Assembly (NCBI RefSeq): GCF_965363235.1
Contig: NC_134840.1
Span: 96,918,416-96,982,415, forward strand
Direction of reading: 5' to 3'
DNA length: 64,000 nt
Source of the DNA: Mytilus galloprovincialis
Taxonomy: Eukaryota > Mollusca > Bivalvia > Mytilida > Mytilidae
In this document: positions 8,191 to 44,451 of the stretch, in pieces
Numbering within the stretch: the first letter of the stretch is position 1
How the letters are laid out: every line of letters begins with the position of its first letter
Program-made: the position numbers and the translations under genes
The notes under the pieces: model-generated
Told to the model about the DNA's origin: nothing
The model's input: the letters and a program-made list of their open reading frames with translations, nothing else
Databases searched by the model: none

Positions 8191-8664
8191 CAATCCTTGC
8201 TCACTGTTTCGTAGTAAATGCATATTATATAATCAATAAATGAGACAGAATCCGTTAAAAACACCAAAAACCTCAAAAATTTCTGGGGCATCAGAAAAAC
8301 ACACAGTCTTCAACAAAAGAAACAGGTGATCTAACAATATATAAAGATCTAAATTGTCCCGAGTCTTAACATTGGTGAATAAATATAAGATCCAAGATAT
8401 CCCATTTACACTAAATTCTTCTAATCAGAGGCTTATTAAGGGGGCTAGGTGCCCAGGTCCGCCTTTTATAGAGCTATATTTATCGTTAATCCAAACTTTT
8501 TACCAGATCCACCCCTTTCAAAATCCTTGATCTACATCCACATGCTGAAATATCAAAAAGAAAATAATCCCAGTTCGGAAGTATATCCAACAAAAATCGA
8601 TTGCCTTTCAATTTCTTGTATGAAAAATGTCTGTCCACTACAACCCTACTTGTCTGACTCTTAC
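8191..8664. other. calmodulin-like intron, unique sequence
   Basis: Intron sequence between the satellite array and the donor at 8664. No further feature recognised. Confidence 0.4.
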
Positions 8665-8892
8665 CTTCATAATTAATTTGTCCGTCTCCCGTCAGATCTG
8701 CCTCTCGTATCATCTCGTCAACCTCCTCATCTCGCAGCCTCTCTCCGAGGTTAGTGAGAACATGTCGTAGCTCTGCCGCACTGATATACCCATTGCCTTC
8801 TTTGTCAAACACTCGGAATGCATCTTTTATTTCATCCTCACTGCTGATATCTCGTTGATGGCGTTTAAACATGGCGAGAAATTCTGCATATA
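8665..8892 (-). CDS. calmodulin-like protein, EF-hand 3 and 4 exon
   Basis: Minus-strand exon of 228 nt between TTTTGCAG and GTAAGA, phase 1 at both ends. It reads from [10 protein letters not shown] through [20 protein letters not shown] to [18 protein letters not shown]-hand loop 3 ([12 protein letters not shown]) and loop 4 are canonical, with Asp at position 1 and Glu at 12, so both should bind calcium. The linker [11 protein letters not shown] replaces the usual ARKMKDTDSEE. Strongly calmodulin family but not calmodulin itself. A second acceptor (ATATGCAG) lies 9 bases inside the exon. Confidence 0.85.
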
Positions 8893-8965
8893 CTGCAAAA
8901 CCTGTGCCTAATGATGTAAATTTTATTATTTCAAAACATATCTTGAGAAGTTCAATAGTTGGTTA

Positions 8966-9800
8966 TGTAATGTTTATTGGTCGTTATGGTTATAAATCAA
9001 GTAGAATCTTAGTGTAACAATGTATGGTTTACGCCCGAGAAAGAGTTACACAGATTTAGACGTTTGGCGGGGAAATTAGTGGCCGGGTCGAAAGTTATAG
9101 GGGTGATCATAAGAGACTCTCTATGCTCCATAAGGGTAACATATTGAGAACACCCCTTTCAAGGAAATAGTAGTATCGACCAAGAGTATATAAGAGAGTG
9201 AGAAACGGCACTAGAGGCTGTCGGTTGGCTGTCGATGAGCTGTCATCCTTCAACTGAGCGTACGTCGGATATATTAAGTGCTAGAAGAGCCTTGATATTC
9301 AGAGGACACCTCGTACTGGGTACAGAGTGGACGTACACGTTGACAGGATCGACATAGCAGACTGTCCCACTCGGAGGACAGGCTGTACCAGCCCGTACTG
9401 TCTGGTAGTGACAGTTGTCCCACTCGGAGGACAAGTTGTTCCAGCCCGCACTGTCTGATAGTCACAAATTGTCCCACTCGGAGGACAAGTTGTATCAGAC
9501 CTCTCTGTTTTGTATTGACAGACTGTCCCATTCGGAGGACAAGCTGTACCAGCTATACTGTCTATAAGTGACACATCGTCCCATCTTGAGGACAGGCTGG
9601 TTTATTGTATTATATTTGTATATATATAATTGTCCGTTGTTACTTTATTTCGACAAAGAGTCAGTGTGTATATTTTAGTTCATTGTGCATAACATAGATA
9701 GTTGTAGTTCTTAGTATTACCGTATTGTTTGTGGACAACTTGGATCCAAGTATTTACTGGAACGGACGTTTGAGATATAAACGCCTGGTTACACGTTACA
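8966..9800 (+). repeat. 5' LTR
   Basis: LTR of 835 bp with a TATA-like GTATATAAGAG near 9187. It holds an internal tandem series at about 9358-9595: five units near 57 bp, each with TGTCCCACTCGGAGGACA or a variant. That motif is partly self-complementary (TGTCC...GGACA). Confidence 0.85.
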
Positions 9801-10016
9801 TATTTGGTGGCTAGCGGTTGGGATTCAAGTTGTCTATGAAATACTATTTGATTGATTGATCGGCATTTAATTTATTGTCAGTTAACATCAATGTTTACTT
9901 AAAAGATTAAAGTGAATCAACCGTAAGGCATAGTTGTAAATCACGGCTGAGTTGTAACACGAGTGTATTATTTAATTAAAATTGTTTCATTTTGATTACA
10001 CTGTATTGCAATAAAT

Positions 10017-11261
10017 ATGTCGAATATTGACGATCAGATTGCTGAAATTAGTAGGCAAATACAGTCTCTTAGCGAAAGCACAATACAACATGGACAAAGT
10101 TTAATATCTACACCTAAAGATCAGGGTGTACGTCCGAAGGTTGTTGAAAATAAAGATCGATATTTTCATCCTAAGCCGGAATTAACGAAAAATCAAAGTA
10201 CTGCTCATACTATTTGCTCTGGTTCGAATAATGTAAAAATTAAACCTACAAAATATGATGGCACTACTCCATGGATTGATTACTTAGCACACTTTGAGAT
10301 GTGTTGCCTAGTTAATATGTGGTCTGAACACCAGAAAGGTTTGTACTTGGCCGTGTCACTGATTGGACAGGCTCAAGCAGTCCTTGGTGATTTACCAAAG
10401 GAAAAGAGACAAATATTTTCAGACCTAGTATATGCACTGGAGGAACGCTTTGCTCCATCTTGTCAAACTGAACTGTATCGTGTACAATTTAAGGAATGTC
10501 GACAAAAAGCAAGCGAGACTTTGCCGGCGTTAGGTCAGTCAGTTCGAAGACTGTCTAATCTGGCCTACCCGACTGCTCCGTTAGAATTAAGGGACACGCT
10601 CGCCAAAGAACAGTTTATAGATGCACTAGTAGACTCCGAAATGAGACTGAGAATTAAACAGTCCCGTCCAAAAGGTCTTAACGATGCTATACGGTTGGCA
10701 GTTGAGCTTGAAGCGTATAACACGGCTGAGAGCAAAACACTGAACAGTATAGGTCATTTACGACAGACTACTAGTGACGAACGGACAGACACACCTGATA
10801 ATCCTGACACGACTGTTTCTATGGGACAAATGGCGATATGGATGCAGACGATTGAGAATAATTTACTGGCCATAACAAATGAGATTAAAGATTTAAAGTC
10901 CCAAAGAAAGTTCCAACGGGGGAAGATAGATAACACACACAGTAAAAGGAAAAGGGGTGGCCCTTGTTTTAATTGTGGAGAAATAGGACATTTCGCGAGA
11001 GATTGTCTCCATAATATTCAGATACCAAGTACGAAGGGAACAAATAAGAATGATTTTATTACGGAAGGTACGGTTAAAACACTAAAGTATGAACTTACGT
11101 CTCCAAATAATGACAAAGACGCTGTTGTTTCAGCATCAGCGGATGCAGGAATGTTTGTCGAGTTGAACATTCAAGATGTACCAGCCACGTTTGTGGTTGA
11201 TACTGGGGCTACATTCACTTTGGTCTCTTCAAGAGTGTATGATTTAATGTCTGACTTGTGA
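10017..11261 (+). mobile_element. Gag-like and protease-motif ORF of the LTR element (fossil part)
   Basis: Open frame of 414 codons in the retrotransposon. Residues about 75-240 look like a metazoan gypsy Gag (ALEERFAPSCQTELYRVQFK region). A CCHC zinc knuckle, CFNCGEIGHFARDC, lies near residue 318. A retropepsin-type VVDTGATFTLVSS lies near residue 393. This is a remnant of a mobile element, not a host gene. Confidence 0.8.
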
Positions 11262-12142
11262 GGCCACATTTGAGTGAAACTAGTTCACAGATTAAGTCCG
11301 TCAGTGACAAGTATCTAAGTCATCGAGGTAAAGGTAGTTTTAAAATTGATTTTGGTAAAGAGAAGTTTACATTAGAGGCCGTTGTAACTGACCTACAAGT
11401 CGATGGTATTCTAGGTTTAGACTTCATGAAGAAAAATAAGTGTCTGATTGACGTGTCTGCTACCGTATTACACATCGATAACGTTAAGGTCCCCCTATGT
11501 GTTCAAGGTACCAAAATTAGAAATACTGATGTCCATAGAAAATCTTGTCGGTTAACATCAGACACACAGTCAAAAACGGACCGTGATTGTTTTAAGAGAG
11601 AACAAAGTCAGGTAAACCTAGTTACAAGTAAGATGTCAGACATAGGTAAAGACTTGGCTTTAAATGAGTTACAGTCAAATGACTCGGACCTTAAACTTGT
11701 TAAGCGGTGGCTGACAGAGGGTCAAAAGCCACAGTACAGTGAGGTATCAGGTAAAGGATACTCTATAAGGTCATTATGGAGTCAGTTTGGTTGTTTAGAG
11801 GTCCATGATGACGTAGTAGTTAGACGCCACGTTGACCGGGAACGGAATATTGTGAAATTACAAGCGGTAATTCCTATGTCGGAGCGCAAGCAAGTATTAG
11901 AATACTGTCATGACACAGACTATGCTGGTCACTTAGGTACGCATAAGACTCGAGAGAAGATATGTCAGTCTTACTATTGGCCTGGTATACAGTCTGATGT
12001 TAGGGCATATGTCGCTAGTTGTGCTAAGTGTTATAAGAGAAAACGCCCAATGAAAAGGAAACGTATCTCGTGGAGATTAGAGGATAATGGTCGTCACGAT
12101 AGTAAGAGACCAACTTGTATGGCTGATAATGTAAATAAGTAA
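11258..12142 (+). mobile_element. integrase zinc-binding region of the LTR element (fossil part)
   Basis: Open frame of 294 codons. Near residues 220-260 it has the HHCC integrase N-terminal zinc-binding pattern (H-L-G-T-H ... C-A-K-C) with YYWPGIQSDVRAYVASC, typical of gypsy elements. No DDE catalytic core is seen. Treated as part of the fossil element. Confidence 0.75.
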
Positions 12143-12230
12143 ATTTCGGATTATGTATAAATATTGTTGAATTAAATTGTGTAATTTTAAATGTATCATG
12201 CGGGACGCATGTAGATTGAGGCGTGGGTTA

Positions 12231-13055
12231 TGTAATGTTTATTGGTCGTTATGGTTATAAATCAAGTAGAATCTTAGTGTAACAATGTATGGTTTACGCC
12301 CGAGAAAGAGTTACACAGATTTAGACGTTTGGCGGGGAAATTAGTGGCCGGGTCGAAAGTTATAGGGGTGATCATAAGAGACTCTCTATGCTCCATAAGG
12401 GTAACATATTGAGAACACCCCTTTCAAGGAAATAGTAGTATCGACCAAGAGTATATAAGAGAGTGAGAAACGGCACTAGAGGCTGTCGGTCGGCTGTCGA
12501 TGAGCTGTCATCCTTCAACTGAGCGTACGTCGGATATATTAAGTGCTAGAAGAGCCTTGATATTCAGAGGACACCTCGTACTGGGTACAGAGTGGACGTA
12601 CACGTTGACAGGATCGACATAGCAGACTGTCCCACTCGGAGGACAGGCTGTACCAGCCCGTACTGTCTGGTAGTGACAGTTGTCCCACTCGGAGGACAAG
12701 TTGTTCCAGCCCGCACTGTCTGATAGTGACAGATTGTCCCACTCGGAGGACAAGTTGTATCAGACCTCTCTGTTTTGTATTGACAGACTGTCCCATTCGG
12801 AGGACAAGCTGTACCAGCTATACTGTCTATAAGTGACACATCGTCCCATCTTGAGGACAGGCTGGTTTATTGTATTATATTTGTATATATATAATTGTCC
12901 GTTGTTACTTTATTTCGACAAAGAGTCAGTGTGTATATTTTAGTTCATTGTGCATAACATAGATAGTTGTAGTTCTTAGTATTACCGTATTGTTTGTGGA
13001 CAACTTGGATCCAAGTATTTACTGGAACGGACGTTTGAGATATAAACACGTTACA
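12231..13055 (+). repeat. 3' LTR
   Basis: LTR of 825 bp, almost identical to the 5' copy and including the same five-unit internal tandem series (about 12623-12860). It is followed by the GTTA target duplication. Confidence 0.85.
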
Positions 13056-13648: not shown

Positions 13649-13792
13649 CTCTGACATCAACCTCCCGAATCATCAGTTGTACTTCTTCCTCCGAAGGATT
13701 AAGGCCTAATGATCGTACTGCCTGTCCAACTTTATCATTTGCAATTTTGCCTTCATTTTTCAGATCAAATAGTGTGAAGGCTTCACGAACCT
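13649..13792 (-). CDS. calmodulin-like protein, EF-hand 1 exon
   Basis: Minus-strand exon of 144 nt between TTTTCAG and GTGTGT. It starts by completing a split Glu codon and ends in phase 1. It reads VREAFTLFDLKNEGKIANDK then VGQAVRSLGLNPSEEEVQLM and IREVDVR. This aligns with calmodulin [20 protein letters not shown]. EF-hand loop 1 is degenerate: Lys at position 3 and Lys instead of Glu at 12, so calcium binding there is doubtful. The following loop 2 is cut off after D-V-R at the splice junction. Confidence 0.8.
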
Positions 13793-14588
13793 CTGAAAAG
13801 AAAGGTTATTGCAACTTTGAAAAAGTTAACAGACTTTGTCATTGTGGATCTAACCTGCATTTTTTAAATATAATTAAGTAAAATACATCTATAAAAATGA
13901 AAATAAATATGCAACTGATTCCCAAAACCGCTGCCGAATTTATTTTATCCATTATATTAATTACCAGCGGCAAATATTACACGATCTTCGGAACTACAAT
14001 TGAAGATATCCTGTGCTGTTATAGACTATCAAGCAGTGTTGAATTATCTACGTGCTTTTCACAAGGTACCACTGCGCAGGAATACATGCCATCCTACTTG
14101 ACAGATTGTTTTCCGCAAAGTTTCTAAAATTCTATCCAATCTTGCAGCGTTTACACTTCCACATAAATACAGAAAATACCAATTTTGAAGTATTTGGTTA
14201 AACATGGCTGTGCTTCAAACCAAGGAACCCTCTCCCTTTTCCCCATCTCGTACTCATGGCGAGACGGGTATGCAACTAAGAAACCATTCAGTCTCTTACG
14301 ATTATGAGCCATTTGAAACTAATATAAACGAAATGAAACAGGCCAATTTACTCATTTAATATGTATTAATTTGTACAGAGAACTTGATATAGAAATGCAC
14401 GAATCTCCAGGAAAAGTTCAAATTAGTGGCAAAAATATAGCATATGAAATAGGTTTCATCAAATTCAAGATAGTGTATATATGGTACTTTTTTTTTTGAA
14501 AAAGTAGTTGTTATTAACTTGTGTGACCTCTGTTTCGAACATCTATATATAGTGGGTTGAAAAAACTATCACTGTTTTAAATTCCTAC
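13793..14588. other. calmodulin-like intron, nothing recognised
   Basis: Intron sequence with no repeat or conserved block that I can identify. The small frame at 13897-14127 has no support. Confidence 0.4.
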
Positions 14589-14619
14589 CTTTTAATTGTT
14601 CATCGGAAAGTTTATCACC
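14589..14619 (-). CDS. calmodulin-like protein, N-terminal exon
   Basis: Minus-strand exon of 31 nt between TTTTGCAG and GTAGGA, reading GDKLSDEQLK and ending in phase 1. This matches the calmodulin start ADQLTEEQIAE directly after Met. The intron after the initiator Met and another soon after residue 10 agree with the gene layout known for calmodulins. Confidence 0.75.
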
Positions 14620-20889: not shown

Positions 20890-20957
20890 ATTTGATATGA
20901 ACCACAGAATGACATAAAATGGATGACAGAGTTCACAGATTAACAGATAATTTACAG
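20890..20957 (+). CDS. CEP128: CEP128 exon 1 (start codon)
   Basis: Follows a TGCTTACAG acceptor. ATG at 20919 begins MDDRVHRLTDNLQ, residues 1-13. An in-frame TGA at 20910 makes this the likely first Met. LTDNLQ joins GTTRNLR in the next exon, as LQDTSRNLR does in vertebrates. Ends in phase 0. Confidence 0.8.
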
Positions 20958-31916: not shown

Positions 31917-32034
31917 GTTGATGAATTAAGGTCACAGCTACACAGAATAGACAATGAAAAAGGTCGTCTGAAACAACAAATGGATGACAGTCGATATGAA
32001 GATGAAGTGAGAGACAGAAGGAAAAGGAGATCAG
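31917..32034 (+). CDS. CEP128: CEP128 exon 10
   Basis: Residues 255-294, ends phase 1: VDELRSQLHRIDNEKGRLKQ, then a basic RDRRKRRS. Vertebrate counterpart VEDLRAQLLKAEEDRAGLQ. Donor is GTTATT, a weak but usable GT. Confidence 0.85.
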
Positions 32035-32619
32035 GTTATTATAATGGAGGAACTTTACATTTTGAAATTTCATAATTTTCCACTTTTTGCTGTATTCATA
32101 TTTCTACGATATTGCACCTCATATTTCATTTTTTGATTTTTGGGTTTCCAATAGGAAAACAAAGACATTATTGTATTGATTCAACTATTAAAGGAAGTAT
32201 AGATTAAATGTCAACTTCATGTTGTTATCTGAAATGATTCCTGCTTAGAGTAATTTGAAAATCTGTATGTTCCCTTCAAAATTCTTTTTAATCTTATTCA
32301 TTAAATCTGAGTCCGATATTTAATATACACTCAATTTCTTGATGGTGTATTTAATTCCATAAAGTTTCAATATACTTGTGATGTATACATTTCAAATTAA
32401 GGAGATGTAGTATCATTCCCAATGAGACAACTAGAGTCTACCCACCAAAGGACAAATGAAGTTGATGTAAGCAATTATAGACAACTGTACATCCTTCAAC
32501 AATGAAAAAAACCAATATCGTATGGTCGGCTATTAAAGGCCCTGACATGAAAAATATGAAGCAATTCAATTTAGAAAACTAATTGTTTATATGCAATAAA
32601 ACAATATTTTCATTTTTAG

Positions 32620-32783
32620 CTGAAGAGGAAAAGGACAGAGACAGGAGATTGATGGAAAGAGAATTACAGGAGTTACGTGGACAGTTAACACGATCAATTA
32701 GTGCTTCAAGTGAAATGGAGGAATTAAGGCGAGGAATTGAACGCAGTGAGCGACAGAGAGTTCAACTTTCAGATCATATAGAG
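32620..32783 (+). CDS. CEP128: CEP128 exon 11
   Basis: Residues 294-348, phase 1 to 0: ...ELQELRGQLTRSISASSEME..., strongly charged coiled coil. The intron just after contains a 37-bp tandem duplication of the exon end and donor (GAGGTCAGTTGTTAAAAGTA at 32781 and 32815), leaving a second GAG|GTCAGT donor copy. Confidence 0.85.
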
Positions 32784-33185
32784 GTCAGTTGTTAAAAGTA
32801 GTTGGTATTTTGTAGAGGTCAGTTGTTAAAAGTAGTTGGTATTTTGTATTTAATGGCTATATATCTATGATTGACCAGCGTAATATTTCTGTGTGGGTTT
32901 TTCGTTGCTTGGTTTCTGTCTCATTGGTATATATTTGATATAATAATAATTTTTATTCCTGGGATACTGGGTGAAATTTTAACTTAAAAATTTTCTTTGG
33001 CCTTTTCAGAATTTGTTTATTCCAAAATTAATTGTCCTAGAAAATGCAACTTTTCGTCAATCTGTGAAATGTATGGCTACAAAAATGGAAACATGTTTAA
33101 CATAATGGAAATATGATGAAAGGTTGTATCTCTAAATTTTTAGAATCTTATAAGTTATTTATTTCATATATTTAATTTTTTGCAG

Positions 33186-33451
33186 ACTTTGACGAAGGAT
33201 TTAGATAATAGAGAAAAACAGGCTGCCAAGCTTATTACACAATTAAAAGAAATGTCAGACAAGTTTGAAGCTTCTGATCGGCAGAAGAATCAGTTACAAA
33301 CTAATTATGACGATACTTCTAATAAAGTGAAAGAAGTTACTAAAGACTTAGAAAAAACAACTAATGAATTACGTAATACACAGTTATCTTTACATGAGTC
33401 GGAGAAAAAGAAAGATGAATTCAAAGCTCGAGCTCAGGAAACTGTCAGACA
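33186..33451 (+). CDS. CEP128: CEP128 exon 12
   Basis: Residues 349-437, the longest exon (266 nt), phase 0 to 2: TLTKDLDNREKQAAKLITQL through ELRNTQLSLHESEKKKDEFK. Continuous heptads. Ends CA|GTAAGT. Confidence 0.85.
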
Positions 33452-33626
33452 GTAAGTAGAATTATATATATTGAATATTCCAGAAAAAATAACATTTGTG
33501 AGCGTTTGTTAAAAAATGGGGAGTAAATATCTGGAACATGACTATTGGCATAGCGATAAATAGTCAGTTTTCTGTGTTTTTTTTTCTCTGCTAAATGAAA
33601 GCAAAATCAGTTGAAGCCAAGAATTA

Positions 33627-34550
33627 CAGTGACTTGACTGTTAGTGTTGCTCTCCACCAATTGCAACTCATTCAAAATTTTGACCAAATTGCAATTTGTT
33701 TTATAAAATCAAATTGTTCAACTGGTCAGAAATTTGAACCAACTGCTGTAGAAAACCACAGCCAAGTCATGAAAGTGCAAGGTGATAAAATAAAACATAC
33801 TTACAATCCTATAAGACTTTAACTCCACTTTAATGATGTTGTGACAAAATTAGTTTATCAGTTTGTATAGTTATATTATATTCATTTCCATGCTGAAGGG
33901 GAACTGTTTGTTTTGAATTGCTATTAAGTTGTCCAAACTAAGCTTTCATATAGTTTTTCTTTCTAAAAGTATTCTATATTTATAAGAATCAGACATTATG
34001 TGAATTAAAACATTTCATATTCAGTAAAATATGTGTAAAATTGCAATATATGTTTGTAGGAAGTTTCCATTGGGGAGATAATAACTTTTCTTTCAAAAAG
34101 TCTTTATTCAAAAGAATAATATTTTAGGTTATCTCCCCTGAAAACTTATCAATAGCATATTGTTATTTCACACATATTTTACTGAATATATGATGTTTTA
34201 TTTAAAATGATATCTGATTCTTATAAATATAGAATACTTTTAGATAGAAAAACTATATGAAAGCTTAGTTTGGACAATTTTATAGCAATTCAAAATAAAC
34301 AGTTCCTCTTCAGCATGGAAATGACTATAATATAACTATACAAACTGATAAACTAATTTTGTTAGAACATCATTAAAAGGATTGTAAGTATACTTTATTT
34401 TATCACCTTGCACTTTCACATTTTGACTGAACAATTTGTTCAATATTCTGACCAGTTGAACAATTTGGTTTAATAAAACAAATTGCAATATGGTCAAAAT
34501 TTTGAATGAGTTGCAATTGGTGGAGAGCAACACTAACAGTCAAGTCACTG
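33627..34550. mobile_element. 924-bp palindromic foldback MITE
   Basis: Almost the whole element is one inverted repeat. It starts CAGTGACTTGACTGTTAGTG and ends with the complement of that sequence at 34550, flanked on both sides by TA (33625-33626 and 34551-34552), the Tc1/mariner-type duplication. Arms of about 420-457 bp run inward to GGGGAGATAA (34073) and TTATCTCCCC (34130), leaving a loop of about 46 nt. The two arms differ by scattered substitutions and small indels. It lies in intron 12 of CEP128. Confidence 0.9.
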
Positions 34551-34719
34551 TAACAGGAATAAGTATGGATCTTAAAATGTGTTTCCCTTTTTGTTTTTAG
34601 GAAAATGGTAATAACTTAATTATGAAACTAACAAAAATGAGTATAATTGTAATCTTAACTTGATCAAATTTTAGATGGAAAATGAAAATTAAACTAATCT
34701 TTACTTGTTCTATTTTAAG

Positions 34720-34894
34720 ATGGAAAATGAAAGTAAAACAATTAGAGCGTGAAGTTGACAGACATAAACATGGTGCTAATCAGTTAATACAGAGAAATGA
34801 ACAGCTAGTCAAAGATCTGGAAAGTCATCGCCACCAGCTACATCATAATGGTATGCAGATGGAAAATATGAAACGAGAGCTCGGGGATGCATTG
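34720..34894 (+). CDS. CEP128: CEP128 exon 13
   Basis: Residues 437-495, completes the CA|A Gln codon, ends phase 0: WKMKVKQLEREVDRHKHGAN through ENMKRELGDAL. Acceptor is ATTTTAAG. A duplicate acceptor with the same exon start lies 45 bases upstream (34674) and would add 15 in-frame residues. Confidence 0.8.
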
Positions 34895-35111
34895 GTAAGT
34901 TATGTTGTCAGCAAGAATACTGTATAATAGATTCATTGTTATCATGGGTATCAATTTGAGTGGATGAACACCAAGAAAAATAAAAGATTTTTGTGGGTAT
35001 TAGAATCTGGATTTGGTTTTGGCAAAAACTGCATATAAGATTAAGGAAATTTGTTATTTCATTGAACATTTCAATTTGTGTTCACCTATACACATGAAAC
35101 CTGTAAAAATT

Positions 35112-35558
35112 AGTTCCATAGTATGGAATTTAGAGACAATAATAGTTCACCACTGTTCCATAGTATTGAATTTAGAGACAATAAATTGAATTTAGAGACA
35201 ATAATAGTTCACCACTGTTCCATAGTATTGAATTAAGAAACAATAATAGTTCACCACTGTTCCATAGTATTGAATTAAGAAACAATAATAGTTCACCACT
35301 GTTCCATAGTATTGAATTTAGAGACAATAATAGTTCACCACTGTTCCATAGTATTGAATTTAGAGACAATAATAGTTCACCACTGTTCCATAGTATTGAA
35401 TTAAGAAACAATAATAGTTCACCACTGTTCCATAGTATTGAATTAAGAAACAATAATAGTTCACCACTGTTCCATAGTATTGAATTTAGAGACAATAATA
35501 GTTCACCACTGTTCCATAGTATTGAATTTAGAGACAATAATAGTTCACCACTGTTCAA
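35112..35558. repeat. 42-bp minisatellite with four-unit higher order
   Basis: About ten copies of TTCCATAGTATTGAATTTAG plus AGACAATAATAGTTCACCACTG. Two versions occur, GAATTTAGAGAC (F) and GAATTAAGAAAC (A), ordered A-A-F-F-A-A-F-F after two initial F copies. That is a 168-bp higher-order repeat. It lies in intron 13 of CEP128. The long minus frame across it is a by-product of a period divisible by 3. Confidence 0.9.
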
Positions 35559-35767
35559 ATCTCATGTTTAATACATAGATATAAATCAAGGTAACTAACA
35601 AAATTTGGCATTTCTAGTTTTTCCATCAAAACATCTTTGCAACACATAGTATTAAAATTAATCTCTCACTTTTATTTGGGGGTTGGGACTGCATTGCTGC
35701 AATGAAAATATATTTTTTTTATTTATCAAATTCCAGTAAATATGTAACAGTTTTCATTTTAAGCATT

Positions 35768-36400
35768 ATTATACCCCCGCTTTAAAAAAGGGGGGGTATA
35801 CTGTTTTACCTCTGTCTGTCCGTCCGTCCGTCAGTCAGTCCGTCCCATGAAACTTTCGTCACATTTTTCTCAGGAACTACACATCCACCCTTTCTGTAAT
35901 TTGGTATCAACATTTATATATGTCCGCCATACCGTGTGATGCGTTTTCAGATTCATCACTTGACAACTTCCTGTTTACCGAACACTTGTCTGATTTTACA
36001 CATGATAGCCACGTTGAAAATTTTCGTCACATTTTTCTCAGGAACTACAATACAAGGATTTCTGAAATTTGGTTTCAGGATTTATATAAGTCAGCTATAC
36101 CGTGTGATGCGTTTTCAGATTCATCACTCGACAACTTCCTGTTTACCGAACACTTGTATGATTTTACACATGATAGCCAAGTTGAAAATTTTCGTCACAT
36201 TTTTCTCAGGAACTACAATACAAGGATTTCTGAAATTTGGTTTCAGGATTTTTATAAGTCAGCTATACCGTGTGATGCGTTTTCAGATTCATCACTCAAC
36301 AACTTCCTGTTTACCGAACACTTGCATATTTTTACACTATTAATATTATCCACTTGCTGCGGGGGTATCATCAGTGAGCAGTAGCTCGCAGTTTCACTTG
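35768..36400. mobile_element. pearl/Helitron-like element with three 168-bp units
   Basis: The left end ATACCCCCGCTTTAAAAAAG-GGGGGGTAT can fold as a hairpin. It is followed by CTGTCTGTCCGTCCGTCC. Core units are marked by CTTCCTGTTTACCGAACACT at about 35968, 36135 and 36303. The right end is CTGCGGGGGTATCATCAGTG. Open frames of 135-154 codons in the core have no start or splice support. Confidence 0.65.
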
Positions 36401-36587
36401 TTAGTTTAGACATTGAAATAAAGAAAATATTTCAGCAAATATATGAAACATATGTTGTGCTTTCATTATAAGTTGTTCTAAGTGACATGAATTGTCAAAT
36501 TATCATCTGGTGCATTACAAATGCATTAGAATTGACACTGTATTTCAAGTATTAAAGTAATCAGTTAAGTTATTTGATTTTTTCCAG

Positions 36588-36707
36588 GCTGTACGAGCTG
36601 CTCAGGATGAACAAATCAGAGTCAAAGACGTGGAACTTAATGAACTTAAATCTGTAAGAATAGATATGGACAGGGAGGTCAGAGACTCCAGAACAATTGT
36701 TGAAAGG
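36588..36707 (+). CDS. CEP128: CEP128 exon 14
   Basis: Residues 496-535, phase 0 to 0: AVRAAQDEQIRVKDVELNEL then KSVRIDMDREVRDSRTIVER. Coiled coil; TTTCCAG acceptor. Confidence 0.85.
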
Positions 36708-36994
36708 GTAAATATAGTTTCTGTTTGTAGAATATTATCATTGTATATCATGTTTGCATGTGTAGTAGGAAATTTATGAATGATTTGGAAATATATATTT
36801 TCATAGTTCAAATGCATAATTGAAATATATGGTATGACCATAATATATGAATGAATTTTTTTTTTTTTTTTTATCTTTGATGACATTTTATTATTAACTT
36901 GAGGTATATAGACACTTTATTTAATAGTGTCATCCTGCCTTAAAATAATACTTATCTATCATATACAAATATGCATATATTTTCACATTATTAG

Positions 36995-37126
36995 ATGGAG
37001 AATGAATTAAACAACAATGCTGCCAAGTTAGCAACTGTAACAGAGGAGAGAAATAGAATAGAGGACAGAATGTCTTCTCTAGAGGCAGCACATTTACTGG
37101 CCCAGGATCAGGCCAATCAACTACAG
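36995..37126 (+). CDS. CEP128: CEP128 exon 15
   Basis: Residues 536-579, phase 0 to 0: MENELNNNAAKLATVTEERN through LLAQDQANQLQ. Coiled coil. Confidence 0.85.
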
Positions 37127-37689
37127 GTATATAGTCTGTTACTATGGAAACAGCATTGGTTGATTTAAATTTGGCTAGAAGGTCTACACAATCACTTTTC
37201 ACTCAAAATTTATAAAAAAAAGAAGAATGAGTAAATGGTGGCATGCTAAATTCAAAGTTTTTAAAACATGGTCACAAACAGAATTCACAAATACACACAT
37301 TGAAATTTTTTTTTCACTGTTTGACTAAGTATTTCACATTTCACATGACTAAATAAAACTAAACATTTGATACATTTCAAACAAAAATTGAAACAGAAAA
37401 TAATGGAGTTAAAACTAGTTTCATTTTCACAAAGTCACAAAGTCACATAGTATTGTTGTGGTATTGTTTCACTGTTAGTTGTTCACATTTCCATGGCAAC
37501 TGTTAGATAAAATTGTGAATTGAAAGAAATTGAAGGGGAATAATCTGTAATTTCATATTCATTTTCACAATTCACAAAGACTCAAGGCATTTGTTTTGTT
37601 ATTGCTTACGTTCAGTCTTCACATTTCTAGCAATTAAAATTAACAATTTTCAGAATGAAAGCTTAATATTAAAACTGATTCATTTTCAG

Positions 37690-37764
37690 CATGAAATAAA
37701 AGAATTGAGTTCTATAAAGGCAGAGATAGCGGCTAAGTTGTCAGAATCTAACGGAAAATTACAT
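37690..37764 (+). CDS. CEP128: CEP128 exon 16
   Basis: Residues 580-604, phase 0 to 0: HEIKELSSIKAEIAAKLSES then NGKLH. TTTTCAG acceptor, GTATGT donor. Confidence 0.8.
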
Positions 37765-38613
37765 GTATGTGCTGCAACACTCGCAGCATACCTAGTCAAG
37801 ACACTATCAAACTGTATTGTACATAGTTCATCATAGAAAATATAGAGCCTGGTATTCCAATCATTTAAAATCACAATTTATTTGGTGGTCAGTAAAGTTC
37901 ATTATGTCTCTGCAAGATCCACAAAATTTGGTATGGACAAATCATGCTAATGATTCAATGAAATTTAAGAGCATGAACAAAATGAAGATTTTATGGTGAA
38001 GATATCAATACAGTTTGACTTGTCTTTTTATTTTAGTAGCATGCTCAGTAGTATATAGTAGAAAACCCTGCATGTTTTATTCTTGTTATAATCAGAATTT
38101 TTTGTCTAATATTCGTTATTTCTGTTATATCTGTTTTATTCCAATTTCTTGGTATTACCTATGCATGATATCATTATTTTGAATTTTCACTAACAAATAT
38201 GTTTGTTTTGGAACTATATCTACTCTTGCAAACTGTTTTCTTTTTCATGTAGAGTTGCTTGTTCATTTTATAAAAAACTGTCATCTGAAATAACTTTTCT
38301 ATAAATTTTCAATTGCATGAACTATATTTTTTCTTCCCTTTTATAAGACCTATATCCTTATCTTTATATTTCTTGTTATCACAGAAACATAATTTAAGAT
38401 TTTTCACAAGCTAATTTTCATAATATCATTAAAAATTATTATTTTACATTCACATTTTCAAAAATTTTGTTTTATAAATCAACTTGGATTCATATAATGA
38501 AAATATGATCATAATCACAAATTCAATCATTAAACAGTAACACCCTATAATCTGTGTCGTCTTTCATTTAAAATCAATAAGAAACAGTCAAAAAAAAATC
38601 TTTATTTATTTAG
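37765..38613. other. CEP128 intron 16
   Basis: Plain AT-rich intron, nothing recognised. Confidence 0.4.
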
Positions 38614-38700
38614 GATTTGAAACAGAATTATATAGAGATGCAGCATAGAGAGAAGGCAGCCAGAGATGAGGCCAAACTTTATCAAAGACAGCTACATGAG
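38614..38700 (+). CDS. CEP128: CEP128 exon 17
   Basis: Residues 605-633, phase 0 to 0: DLKQNYIEMQHREKAARDEA then KLYQRQLHE. Coiled coil. Confidence 0.85.
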
Positions 38701-39092
38701 GTAATAAAAATAAAATGGGCTCAAACGAAACCACAATATATATTGGAAGTGAAGGTGTATTTAAAATTTTGGCATATCCACACATAACTTATTCATGAAA
38801 CGATTCAAATATTAAATATATTTAAATGTATTTAAAGTAAATTTTTATAAAAATTGTATAGTATTAGTTTATGTTTCGCCTAATTAAGATAATGAGGCCA
38901 GACATAATTTGGGTATTTCCACTGGCACTGGAAGTAGCATAATTTCAATTGACATTGTATGGGCCCACACTCATACTCATGGTTAACTGAAGCTTTTGTT
39001 GTTTTATATGTGAAAGGGATGCCATTTAAACTTCAACAATTACAATCTATAATGAAAGGAATGTGTGTTTACTGTTTATTTATTATTTCTAG

Positions 39093-39239
39093 GAAAGAGA
39101 AAATCACCAAGAACAAATAGAGTCGGTAAAACATGAGTTGAGTGAGGTTAAAGTTCGTGAAGCACATGTCATGCAGGATATTCAGAGGAAGATGAAGAGA
39201 GGTCATGCAGAGTATGAAGCTACGATACAAACATTGAAG
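39093..39239 (+). CDS. CEP128: CEP128 exon 18 (source of the tandem array)
   Basis: Residues 634-682, phase 0 to 0: ERENHQEQIESVKHELSEVK through IQRKMK, then RGHAEYEATIQTLK and donor GTAAAA. The last 42 nt (14 codons) plus this donor are the seed of the repeat array that follows. The 3' half of the exon is therefore present 35 times in the locus. Confidence 0.9.
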
Positions 39240-39915
39240 GTAAAATAAATCAGGGGGTTTATTGTTTATTATACCCATTGACCCTGAAGAGAGGTCATGC
39301 TGAGTATAAAGCTACGATACAAACATTGAAGGTAAAATAGATTTAGGGGTTTTATTGTTTATTATACCCATTGACCTGAAGAGAGGTCATGCTGAGTATG
39401 AAGCTACGATACAAACATTGAAGGTAAAATAAATCAGGGGGTTTATTGTTTATTATACCCATTGACCCTGAAGAGAGGTCATGCTGAGTATAAAGCTACG
39501 ATACAAACATTGAAGGTAAAATAGATTTAGGGGTTTTATTGTTTATTATACCCATTGACCTGAAGAGAGGTCATGCTGAGTATGAAGCTACGATACAAAC
39601 ATTGAAGGTAAAATAAATCAGGGGGTTTATTGTTTATTATACCCATTGACCTGAAGAGAGGTCATGCAGAGTATGAAGCTACGATACAAGCATTGAAGGT
39701 AAAATAGATTTAGGGGTTTTATTGTTTATTATACCCATTGACCTGAAGAGAGGTCATGCAGAGTATGAAGCTACGATACAAGCATTGAAGGTAAAATAGA
39801 TTTAGGGGTTTTATTGTTTATTATACCCATTGACCTGAAGAGAGGTCATGCAGAGTATGAAGCTACGATACAAACATTGTAGGTAAAATAGATTTAGGGA
39901 TTTTATTGTTTATTA
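39240..39915 (+). repeat. exon-18-derived tandem array, block 1
   Basis: Seven tandem units of 91-93 bp. Each holds about 50 bp of intron start (GTAAAATAGATTTAGGGGTT through TTATACCCATTGACC-TGAAG) followed by 42 bp equal to the 3' end of exon 18 (AGAGGTCATGC(A/T)GAGTATGA...AAACATTGAAG). The next unit's GTAAAA follows at once. Two copies have AAA for GAA, two have GCATTG for ACATTG, and the last has a TAG in the core. Otherwise the coding part is preserved. Confidence 0.95.
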
Positions 39916-41213
39916 GGGCCCCGCCGACGGCGGGTCGCCCTATAGTGATCAGTCTGTCCGTCCGTCCGTCCGTCCGTAACACTTTCGTGTCCGCATCATA
40001 TCTAGAGAACCGTTATGATTTCATACTTAATACTTAACATGATTATTAACCAACACCAGAGGGTGTGTCATGTTGTATGTACAACTTCCTAGGTCAAAGG
40101 TCAAGGTCAAAAAGTTTGGTTTCAGTTGACAACCCCGTGTCCTGTGGTGAAGATCGTGTCCGCTCCATATCTAGATAACCATTATGATTTCAAAGTTTAT
40201 ACTTGACATCCATTTTAACAACCACCAGAGGGTGTGTCATGATGTATGTACAACTTCCTAGGTCAAAGGTCAAGGTCAAAAACTTTGGTTTCGGGTTGAC
40301 AATCCTGTGTCCTGTGGTGAAGATCGTGTCCGCTCCATATCTAGATAATCGTTATGATTTCAAAGTATATACTTGTCATACTTTTTAACCACCACCAGAG
40401 GGCGTGTCATGATGTATGTACAACTTCCTAGGTCAAAGTCAACGTCAAAAAAACTTTGGTTTCAGTTGACAACCCTGTGTCCTGTGGTGAAGATTGTGTC
40501 CGCTCTACATCTTGAGAACCGTTATGATTTCAAATATTATACTTGACATCCATTTTAACCAACACCAGAGGGTGTGTCATGATGTATGTACCACTTCCTA
40601 GGTCAAAGGTCTGTCTGTCTGTTGGTCTGTCCATCGCTAACAAATTTGATCCACATTATATTTTGAGAGGACAGCTGTTATTATTTCATACTTTATACCT
40701 GACAAATATTTTCAACTTAACACATATATTAACCAACACAAGAGAATGTGTCATAATGTATGCATCCTAGGTCTAAGATCAGTCTGTCGGTCTGTCCATC
40801 CATTCGTTGTTCTTAACAAATTGTGTCCGCTCTACCTCTCGAGAACCATTAATATTTCATACTTTATACTTGGTGGGTCATAATATATTGAAGGCATAAT
40901 TCTAAAAATATGTGACAAATATCAATTGGGCAGCACCTTTAAACATATTGTTCAAACATCAATCCATATATCCAGAAGTCACCTTAGAGTAGTAAACAAT
41001 GAGTTCACATCATGCAGTCATATCACTATTATACTATGAAAGTAAGATGAGAATATTTATCAGTTTTAACTTAAAATCTTAGATCAAAATCACACATGAG
41101 ACTATGTAATAACTTCAAATAATGCTTCATATCAGATTATCCATACAACTTATTTACCCCACGTTATTGACAGCGGGGCCCACAGAGATGGCTCCCATCT
41201 CAATGATATCTAG
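39916..41213. mobile_element. pearl/Helitron-like element inserted in the array
   Basis: Interrupts one array unit: GTTTATTA on the left resumes as TTATACCC on the right, with TTA shared. The left end GGGCCCCGCCGACGGCGGGT folds on itself. CAGTCTGTCCGTCCGTCC follows. Core units of about 170 bp (marker CCAGAGGGTGTGTCATG near 40057, 40227, 40397 and 40567, decayed near 40740) number about five. The right end is GACAGCGGGGCCCACAGAGATG. It must be younger than the array. Confidence 0.75.
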
Positions 41214-43590
41214 TTATACCCATTGACCTGAAGAGAGGTCATGCAGAGTATGAAGCTACAATACAAACATTGAAGGTAAAATAGATTTAGGGGTTTTATT
41301 GTTTATTATACCCATTGACCTGAAGAGAGGTCATGCTGAGTATGAAGCTACGATACAAACATTGAAGGTAAAATAGATTTAGGGGTTTGATTGTTTATTA
41401 TACCTATTGACCTGAAGAGAGGTCATGCTGAGTATGAAGCTACGATACAAACATTGAAGGTAAAATAGATCAGGGGGTTTTATTGTTTATTATACCCATT
41501 GACCTGAAGAGAGGTCATGCAGAGTATGAAGCTACGATACAAACATTGAAGGTAAAATAGATCAGGGGGTTTTATTGTTTATTATACCTATTGACCCTGA
41601 AGAGAGGTCATGCTGAGTATGAAGCTACGATACAAACATTGAAGGTAAGAGAGGTCATGCTGAGTATGAAGCTACGATACAAACATTGAAGGTAAAATAG
41701 ATCAGGGGGTTTTATTGTTTATTATACCTATTGACCCTGAAGAGAGGTCATGCTGAGTATGAAGCTACCATACAAACATTGAAGGTAAAATAGATTTAGG
41801 GGTTTTATTGTTTATTATACCCACTGACCTGAAGAGAGGTCATGCTGAGTATGAAGCTACGATACAAACATTGAAGGTAAAATAGATTTGGGGTTTTATT
41901 GTTTATTATACCTATTGACCCTGAAGAGAGGTCATGCTGAGTATGAAGCTACGATACAAACATTGAAGGTAAAATAGATTTGGGGTTTTATTGTTTATTA
42001 TACCCATTGACCCTGAAGAGAGGTCATGCTGAGTATGAAGCTACGATACAAACATTGAAGGTAAAATAGATTTGGGGTTTTATTGTTTATTATACCCATT
42101 GACCCTGAAGAGAGGTCATGCTGAGTATGAAGCTACGATACAAACATTGAAGGTAAAAAAGATTTGGGGTTTTAATTGTTTATTATACCCATTGACCCTG
42201 AAGAGAGGTCATGCTGAGTATGAAGCTACAATACAAACATTGAAGGTAAAAAAGATTTGGGGTTTTATTGTTTATTATACCCACTGACCTGAAGAGAGGT
42301 CATGCTGAGTATGAAGCTACGATACAAACATTGAAGGTAAAATAGATTTGGGGTTTTATTGTTTATTATACCCATTGACCCTGAAGAGAGGTCATGCTGA
42401 GTATGAAGCTACGATACAAACATTGAAGGTAAAAAAGATTTGGGGTTTTAATTGTTTATTATACCTATTGACCCTGAAGAGAGGTCATGCTGAGTATGAA
42501 GCTACGATACAAACATTGAAGGTAAAATAGATTTAGGGGTTTTATTGTTTATTATACCTATTGACCCTGAAGAGAGGTCATGCTGAGTATGAAGCTACGA
42601 TACAAACATTGAAGGTAAAATAGATTTAGGGGTTTTATTGTTTATTATACCCATTGACCTGAAGAGAGGTCATGCTGAGTATGAAGCTACGATACAAACA
42701 TTGAAGGTAAAATAGATTTAGGGGTTTTATTGTTTATTATACCTATTGACCCTGAAGAGAGGTCATGCTGAGTATGAAGCTACGATACAAACATTGAAGG
42801 TAAAATAGATTTGGGGTTTTATTGTTTATTATACCTATTGACCCTGAAGAGAGGTCATGCTGAGTATGAAGCTACGATACAAACATTGAAGGTAAAATAG
42901 ATTTGGGGTTTTAATTGTTTATTATACCTATTGACCCTGAAGAGAGGTCATGCTGAGTATGAAGCTACAATACAAACATTGAAGGTAAGAGAGGTCATGC
43001 TGAGTATGAAGCTACGATACAAACATTGAAGGTAAAATAGATTTGGGGTTTTATTGTTTTTTATACCTATTGACCCTGAAGAGAGGTCATGCTGAGTATG
43101 AAGCTACGATACAAACATTGAAGGTAAAATAGATTTGGGGTTTTATTGTTTATTATACCTATTGACCCTGAAGAGAGGTCATGCAGAGTATGAAGCTACG
43201 ATACAAACATTGAAGGTAAAATAGATTTGGGGTTTTATTGTTTATTATACCTATTGACCCTGAAGAGAGGTCATGCTGAGTATGAAGCTACAATACAAAC
43301 ATTGAAGGTAAAATAGATTTGGGGTTTTAATTGTTTATTATACCTATTGACCCTGAAGAGAGGTCATGCTGAGTATGAAGCTACAATACAAACATTGAAG
43401 GTAAGAGAGGTCATGCTGAGTATGAAGCTACGATACAAACATTGAAGGTAAAGTAAATCAGGGGGTTTGATTGTATATTATACCCATTGACCTGAAGAGA
43501 GGTCATGCTGAGTATGAAGCTACGATACAAACATTAAAGGTAAAGTAAATCAGGGGGTTTCATTGTTTATTATACCCACTGACCTTGAGT
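41214..43590 (+). repeat. exon-18-derived tandem array, block 2
   Basis: Twenty-seven further units of the same 90-93 bp repeat. Three units (cores near 41649, 42988 and 43408) lack the spacer, so two cores abut as TTGAAGGTAAGAGAGGTCAT; these carry GTAAGA, a stronger donor than GTAAAA. Core changes are mostly synonymous in the exon frame (GCA/GCT, ACG/ACA/ACC, TTG/TTA). Units with GTAAAAAAG lack the in-frame stop and, at 93 bp, keep frames open across the unit (42072-42287). The array ends in CCTTGAGTTTTTCCTCAATA. Confidence 0.95.
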
Positions 43591-44002
43591 TTTTCCTCAA
43601 TATTTAGTAATGAGTGGGGTATACTTGAGTGCAAATCTTCTTGTTTTGGGCAAATTTTAATAAGATCTACAGAGTAATGTTATTATTTTGAAATACTAAA
43701 AACTAACTTATTTTTGCTAGCTGGAAAATTATCAATTTTCTGAAAACGGATCAGTTCAGTTTGAATTCTTAACATTGTAATAGTCTTGTGAACCAGTTTG
43801 CTTCGTGTTACCAACATAGAGTATATGTATAATAACAAATAATGCTGAATCCACAGTATTAGAAAATAAAAAAAAGGTCTTTTGATAACAAAACATAAAA
43901 AGAAAATGGATGTGCAAAACAGAATATGACTGAATTAGATATTTCCATATACAAATGATTTTGACTATATATAACTTTAACCAAATTTTCATTATTTGAT
44001 AG

Positions 44003-44100
44003 ATGGAGCTATCAGAAGAAAAATCTGCACATAAAATCTCAAAGAGAAATGAAGAGAAGAACCGACTTGAAAGTGAGAAACTCACCATAGAAATGGTCAG
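44003..44100 (+). CDS. CEP128: CEP128 exon 19
   Basis: Residues 683-715, phase 0 to 2: MELSEEKSAHKISKRNEEKN then RLESEKLTIEMV. First true exon after the array. TTTGATAG acceptor, GTTAGT donor. Confidence 0.85.
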
Positions 44101-44384
44101 GTTAGTATACTAATATACACACTATGGTTTAGGATTCAAATTAGGGCTGTTCCATACATGATATTGGAGGAACTAAGGGATTGGTTACCTCATTTTCAAA
44201 GTACCTTACCTGGATACCAGGTTAAGAAAACAACTCTTAAAATCATCAGTACGTTTGTGACAACCATTTTTTGGGTATTATACAAGTGTTAAATACAAAT
44301 CTTGAATTAGCTGTTATTTCAGAAATTAGAGGAAATGATTGGTGGTCATAAAATTTTAGTATTTTTTTAATATATATTTAATAG

Positions 44385-44451
44385 ATATGAAGAGGAGAAT
44401 GGCCGATTGATGAGAAAATTAGAGAAGATTCGTCAAGAATATGAAACCCAG
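44385..44451 (+). CDS. CEP128: CEP128 exon 20
   Basis: Residues 715-737, phase 2 to 0: YEEENGRLMRKLEKIRQEYE then TQ. Coiled coil. Confidence 0.85.

Follow-up and report, generated by a model that had tools for sequence, protein, structure and literature searches.

What becomes of a gene when the end of one of its exons, splice donor included, is repeated 34 times over in the intron that follows? The question is raised by a window of 64,000 nucleotides from the genome of Mytilus galloprovincialis (contig NC_134840.1), in which all positions given here are counted. The original prediction saw in each repeat unit a possible 42-nt exon capable of lengthening a coiled coil by two heptads, and named as its own alternative an intronic minisatellite that had captured an exon end. 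It is this alternative that the present analysis supports: the array is very probably a minisatellite of the "mirage" type, with decoy donors that would normally be removed together with the intron.

The gene carrying the array on the + strand of the window is identified by homology as CEP128, in agreement with the original prediction. A protein search with a 583-residue query joined from its exons matched the annotated CEP128 of Mytilus trossulus at 93% over the whole query, and the further matches among the best 60 (scoring covered the 7996 candidates with the most words in common) included many other bivalves, one bird and one cuttlefish. Alignment by tblastn of mussel proteins, including those of M. 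trossulus and M. californianus, placed CEP128 exons most like those of the edulis group from approximately 25.1 to 51.7 kb, with a first coding exon near 20919. The reading frame stays open over the joined exons from 31917 to 44451, and five exons between 36588 and 39239 are all of phase 0/0. Two exons enclose the array:

39093..39239, + strand: CEP128 exon whose last 46-47 nt form the exonic portion of the repeat unit (phase 0/0; placed by open frame, tblastn and breakpoint); it is the 17th coding exon of the tblastn map, not the 18th as first numbered.
44003..44100, + strand: next exon (MELSEEKSAHK...), whose acceptor, correctly located from the outset, is the one faced by all 35 near-identical donors (open frame, tblastn).

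Over 33 residues, the second of these exons is identical to the M. trossulus protein and to a M. galloprovincialis model, and 91% identical to that of M. californianus.

The array itself was confirmed, with corrections. Scanning for the 42-nt core with no more than two mismatches from the consensus returned 35 copies on the + strand between 39198 and 43539, one being the exon's own end (39198-39239) and the other 34 lying inside the next intron (39290-43539), the number given from the outset. Twenty of the 35 are identical. That the core makes up exactly 14 codons, with phase 0 at both ends, also held true in the open frame of the joined exons. Tandem Repeats Finder scores for the array reached 2479, far beyond chance. 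Its parts are as follows:

39198..39239, + strand: core copy 0, the authentic exon end RGHAEYEATIQTLK, followed by the donor GTAAAA and then by an in-frame TAA.
39290..39912, + strand: left array block, extra cores 1-7 (Tandem Repeats Finder, core scan).
39913..41213, + strand: inserted element of 1301 bp with HINE-like anatomy, in the spacer after core 7.
41214..43585, + strand: right array block, extra cores 8-34 (Tandem Repeats Finder, core scan).
41645..41649, + strand: 5-nt spacer GTAAG, whose donor AAGGTAAGA outscores the authentic donor; the same spacer recurs at 42985-42989 and 43401-43405.

A uniform period of 90-93 bp had been proposed; most units do measure 91-93 bp, with spacers of 49-51 nt, the exceptions being three 47-bp units built on the 5-nt spacer and one unit split by the insertion. 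The capture of an exon end with its donor likewise stands, while the proposed division into 42 exonic and about 50 intronic nucleotides has to be redrawn, each full unit consisting of 46-47 nt of exon and 45-46 nt of intron, donor included, and a single T at the join that could belong to either. The TGAAG ahead of the core in each full unit, first taken for an acceptor, is itself copied exon sequence (...GATGAAG|AGAGG in the exon).

The insertion and the TAA of the first spacer were both absent from the original prediction. Rejoining the flanks of the insert restores a normal spacer, and an alternative reading of its borders gives a target duplication of 3 bp (TTA). Near its ends the element bears 9-bp inverted repeats, GGGCCCCGC and GCGGGGCCC (read by eye), followed inwards by a palindromic IR at 39920, a 4-nt microsatellite at 39953 and 170-bp tandem repeats at 39985-40611; its 3' terminus is CTAG, and a 7-bp hairpin lies 12 nt from that terminus. 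End inverted repeats, an adjacent IR, a 4-nt microsatellite, central satellite-like repeats and a 3' palindrome are also the anatomy by which the available text of PMC7492417 defines the oyster HINEs, and on this anatomical ground alone the insert resembles Cg_HINE, a non-autonomous Helentron of Crassostrea gigas, from which it differs in that its inverted repeat is 9 bp long against the 11-12 bp typical in oyster. The comparison applies to positions 39913-41213 and not to the exon-edge array. We note that the insert also contains, at 40091 and 40260, the motif AGGTCA-N-AGGTCA, whose spacing we take to be that of a candidate nuclear-receptor DR1 site.

Differences among the copies bear on whether the array is a repeat like any other. 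Thirty of the 35 cores encode an unchanged 14-residue peptide; two read E to K, two T to A, and core 7 (39841-39882) ends in a TAG stop at 39880-39882. Seven distinct changes relative to the exon were counted, and the original description of them as mostly synonymous is borne out by number (four synonymous, two missense), but one of the seven is the stop and the chance of at least four synonymous changes is borderline (P=0.04-0.09, depending on the assumed transition bias). Variable sites amount to 6 of 42 over all 35 cores. The claim that spacers vary more than cores came out as a leaning: in an anchored alignment of 31 of the 35 units, which leaves out the insertion-split unit and the three with 5-nt spacers, nucleotide diversity was 0.021 in the core against 0.056 in the spacer (one-sided permutation p=0.055), and variable sites numbered 5 of 42 against 11 of 52, a difference that is not significant (Fisher p=0.28). 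Core conservation relative to the spacer is thus a tendency, not an established fact. The diversity difference and the synonymous excess, each at or close to the limit of significance, lean towards the original prediction, as do the 30 unchanged peptides; homogenisation might by itself account for the core conservation. A stronger difference obtained with an automatic alignment (Fisher p=0.026; diversity p=0.0018) was rejected because gaps were wrongly placed in that alignment, chiefly in the run of Cs that ends the spacer, which made the spacers look more variable than they are.

The pattern among the units is one of local homogenisation from which the ends of the array are left out. Neighbouring units in the anchored alignment differ at a mean of 3.57 positions, compared to 4.78 over all pairs, none of 10000 shuffled unit orders giving so low a mean between neighbours, and the three most divergent of the 31 units are those at the edges (units 34, 33 and 0, with 8.27, 8.0 and 6.53). 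The difference between the blocks on either side of the insert exceeds that seen among shuffled units (p=0.017 in the automatic and p=0.005 in the anchored alignment); a split specific to the insert was nonetheless rejected, other split points separating the units better on both alignments.

Splice sites were scored with position-weight models built from 26 acceptors and 24 donors of CEP128, whose positions came from tblastn borders together with open frames and the AG/GT dinucleotides, with mapped acceptors scored leave-one-out. The donor predicted for every unit, GTAAAA, is present in 30 of 35; two others read GTAAAG and three GTAAG. GTAAAA scores 7.1, within the range of the mapped donors (4.2-13.4) and above 98.7% of background GTs in the gene, so that most array donors equal the authentic one, while the three GTAAG donors, at 10.4, exceed every background GT once mapped donors are set aside. 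The folding of four single units revealed nothing notable (z -0.41 to -1.40), no Rfam family matched at gathering scores, and a scan of viral contigs for the array unit found none.

The breakpoints suggest how the locus may have arisen. An initial tandem duplication would have had one breakpoint 45-46 nt inside the intron and the other 46-47 nt upstream of the exon's end; unequal exchange on a local scale, or else replication slippage, would then have expanded the product to 34 extra intronic copies. Since this arrangement leaves the authentic exon and its first donor intact, growth of the array could have been tolerated as long as the first donor is the one joined to the acceptor at 44003, the 34 others acting as decoys that would normally leave the transcript together with the intron. 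When identical donors are duplicated in laboratory constructs, the intron-proximal one is often preferred; this would predict use of the last donor in the mussel array and counts against the proposed use of the first. A search of the open-licence literature for duplicated donors returned no match.

The closest known kind of array is, by analogy, most likely the amphioxus mirage, a minisatellite-like tandem repeat lying across an exon-intron boundary, described in Adh3, globins and troponin C and, in imperfect form, in PGBD5 (PMC3087553, PMC3902484). In the accessible text of these reports, boundary-spanning repeats place copies of splice sites in the intron, mirages with duplicated splice sites splice normally, their length varies in Adh3 and BflGb6, and the inner copies of BflGb6 are homogenised, those at the boundary less so (PMC3087553, PMC3902484). 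The mussel array shows two of these traits, its unit spanning an exon-intron boundary and copying a splice site, and its neighbouring copies being alike with less homogenised edges; as in the available description of BflGb9, it is the 3' boundary of the exon that is repeated. It differs from BflGb6, for which the same text gives 6 and 3 units in the two haplotypes, in having 34 extra units, mostly of 91-93 bp, and from the amphioxus mirages in general in belonging to a mollusc, in holding an inserted mobile element and in being known here from its sequence alone. Among the matches listed from the open-licence literature, none named an exon-edge minisatellite in molluscs or in CEP128; in an abalone gene, the accessible text places a minisatellite inside an intron and states no crossing of a boundary (PMC6905558).

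The best-surviving alternative, which we nevertheless consider unlikely, is that the internal donors, chiefly the three GTAAG, are used to a measurable extent together with the exon's own acceptor, yielding truncated or decaying messages and allowing copy number to set CEP128 output. The equality of GTAAAA with the authentic donor and the high score of the three stronger sites speak for such use, as does the first spacer, which in frame reads GTA AAA TAA (V-K-stop): joining a downstream donor to the exon's own acceptor would thus add two codons past the exon and then a stop, truncating CEP128 where the original prediction expected a longer coil. On the other hand, a distant donor would create a very long exon, and the normal splicing reported for amphioxus mirages with duplicated splice sites, as far as the available text of PMC3087553 and PMC3902484 goes, speaks against such use. 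CEP128 has a role at the subdistal appendages of centrioles. A slightly more doubtful proposal would see in the array a variable splicing device, its internal donors or units being used often enough for individuals that differ in copy number to make CEP128 in different amounts or lengths, either truncated at the TAA or extended by 14-residue segments, perhaps with consequences for these appendages.

That individual units are spliced in as 42-nt exons through TGAAG|AG, each making the coiled coil two heptads longer, appears very improbable despite the phase 0/0 of every core, the largely preserved peptide, the realistic donors and an acceptor AG that is in frame. With the gene's own matrix, the AGs preceding all 35 cores score at most 1.8, below each of the 26 mapped acceptors (1.9-17.1, with two at 1.9 and the next at 4.7), although the best of them falls short of the two weakest by a mere 0.1; of 1232 background AGs, 23% reach or exceed the array median, and acceptors comparable to those of the gene were therefore not found by this measure. 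The separation is incomplete in a generic acceptor matrix, where array AGs mostly score between -0.3 and -0.6 and the mapped acceptor at 38614 is equally low (-0.4), a point in favour of the cassettes. Further points against them are the position of the AG in copied exon sequence, the spacers of 49-51 nt when the shortest of 25 measured CEP128 introns has 239 nt, the stop codon in one core, and a core/spacer difference short of significance.

Related proteins lean the same way. Among 75 retrieved in three capped searches, the 14-residue motif is present once in 57 and not in exact form in 18, and none of the 75 displays a second motif, a unit-to-unit join or a read-through spacer, within a set drawn from a database clustered at 90% and limited to candidates between 0.55 and 1.75 times as long as the query (a full-length protein carrying over two or three extra units would exceed this), in which the retrieved models of M. 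edulis and M. galloprovincialis either end ahead of the junction or begin beyond it. The plain junction to MELSE is found in 52 of the 57 motif-bearing proteins, including the M. trossulus and M. californianus models; of the remaining five, three continue with MELGE, a fourth is joined to a later exon and the fifth runs on into other sequence, apparently intron. A M. edulis protein model (P0045) ends inside the exon of the array and a M. galloprovincialis model (P0073) starts exactly at the exon after it. Edulis-group gene models may be broken at this intron, which would fit the presence of the array there too.

Finally, that the copy number or the whole array is an assembly artefact is scarcely credible, for although assembly has difficulty in getting the copy number of arrays like this one right, the units carry distinct variants, those at the edges are the most divergent, and an element lies inside the array with flanks that rejoin to a normal spacer.

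If the mirage reading is true, mirage-type exon-edge minisatellites, described in amphioxus, would come to include a case in a mollusc, at a copy number well above that of the globin examples. The locus would then be a natural splicing experiment: a single acceptor has 35 near-identical donors to choose among, three of which outscore the authentic site, yet with the exon's own acceptor it is the first donor alone that yields a normal message, posing the question of how that donor gets chosen. It also bears on whether exon-edge arrays feed intron or exon gain, as proposed for the amphioxus globins. The AG before and GT after an in-frame piece of exon recall the Rogers model of intron gain by duplication of an AG/GT proto-splice site, as it is cited in the available text of PMC3087553, and would give each full unit the makings of a new exon or intron; the mussel case differs from this model in that its acceptors are weak and that no copy gives any sign of having turned exon.

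CEP128 contains a second, far smaller, duplication of this kind:

32779..32846, + strand: perfect 34-bp tandem copy of an exon edge, comprising 5 nt of exon and 29 nt of intron.

Its two copies duplicate the donor of the exon at 32620-32783. Boundary-spanning arrays are not enriched in CEP128, and given that random placement of six arrays produces at least two boundary overlaps in 51% of trials, no special placing mechanism is needed to account for them.

Other observations in the window include the remains of an LTR-type retroelement at 9274-12866, with a gag-like frame bearing a zinc knuckle (9996-11261) and an integrase zinc-binding frame (11255-12142), two frames in which no match to reverse transcriptase was found; similar tandem repeats flank the element near 9363-9599 and 12623-12864. 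The minus strand carries an EF-hand frame at 8486-8962 and candidate exons, picked by composition only, near 13649-14619. Two open frames, of 177 and 147 residues, overlap an intronic 168-bp repeat (35850-36337, 2.9 copies) and are probably due to chance.
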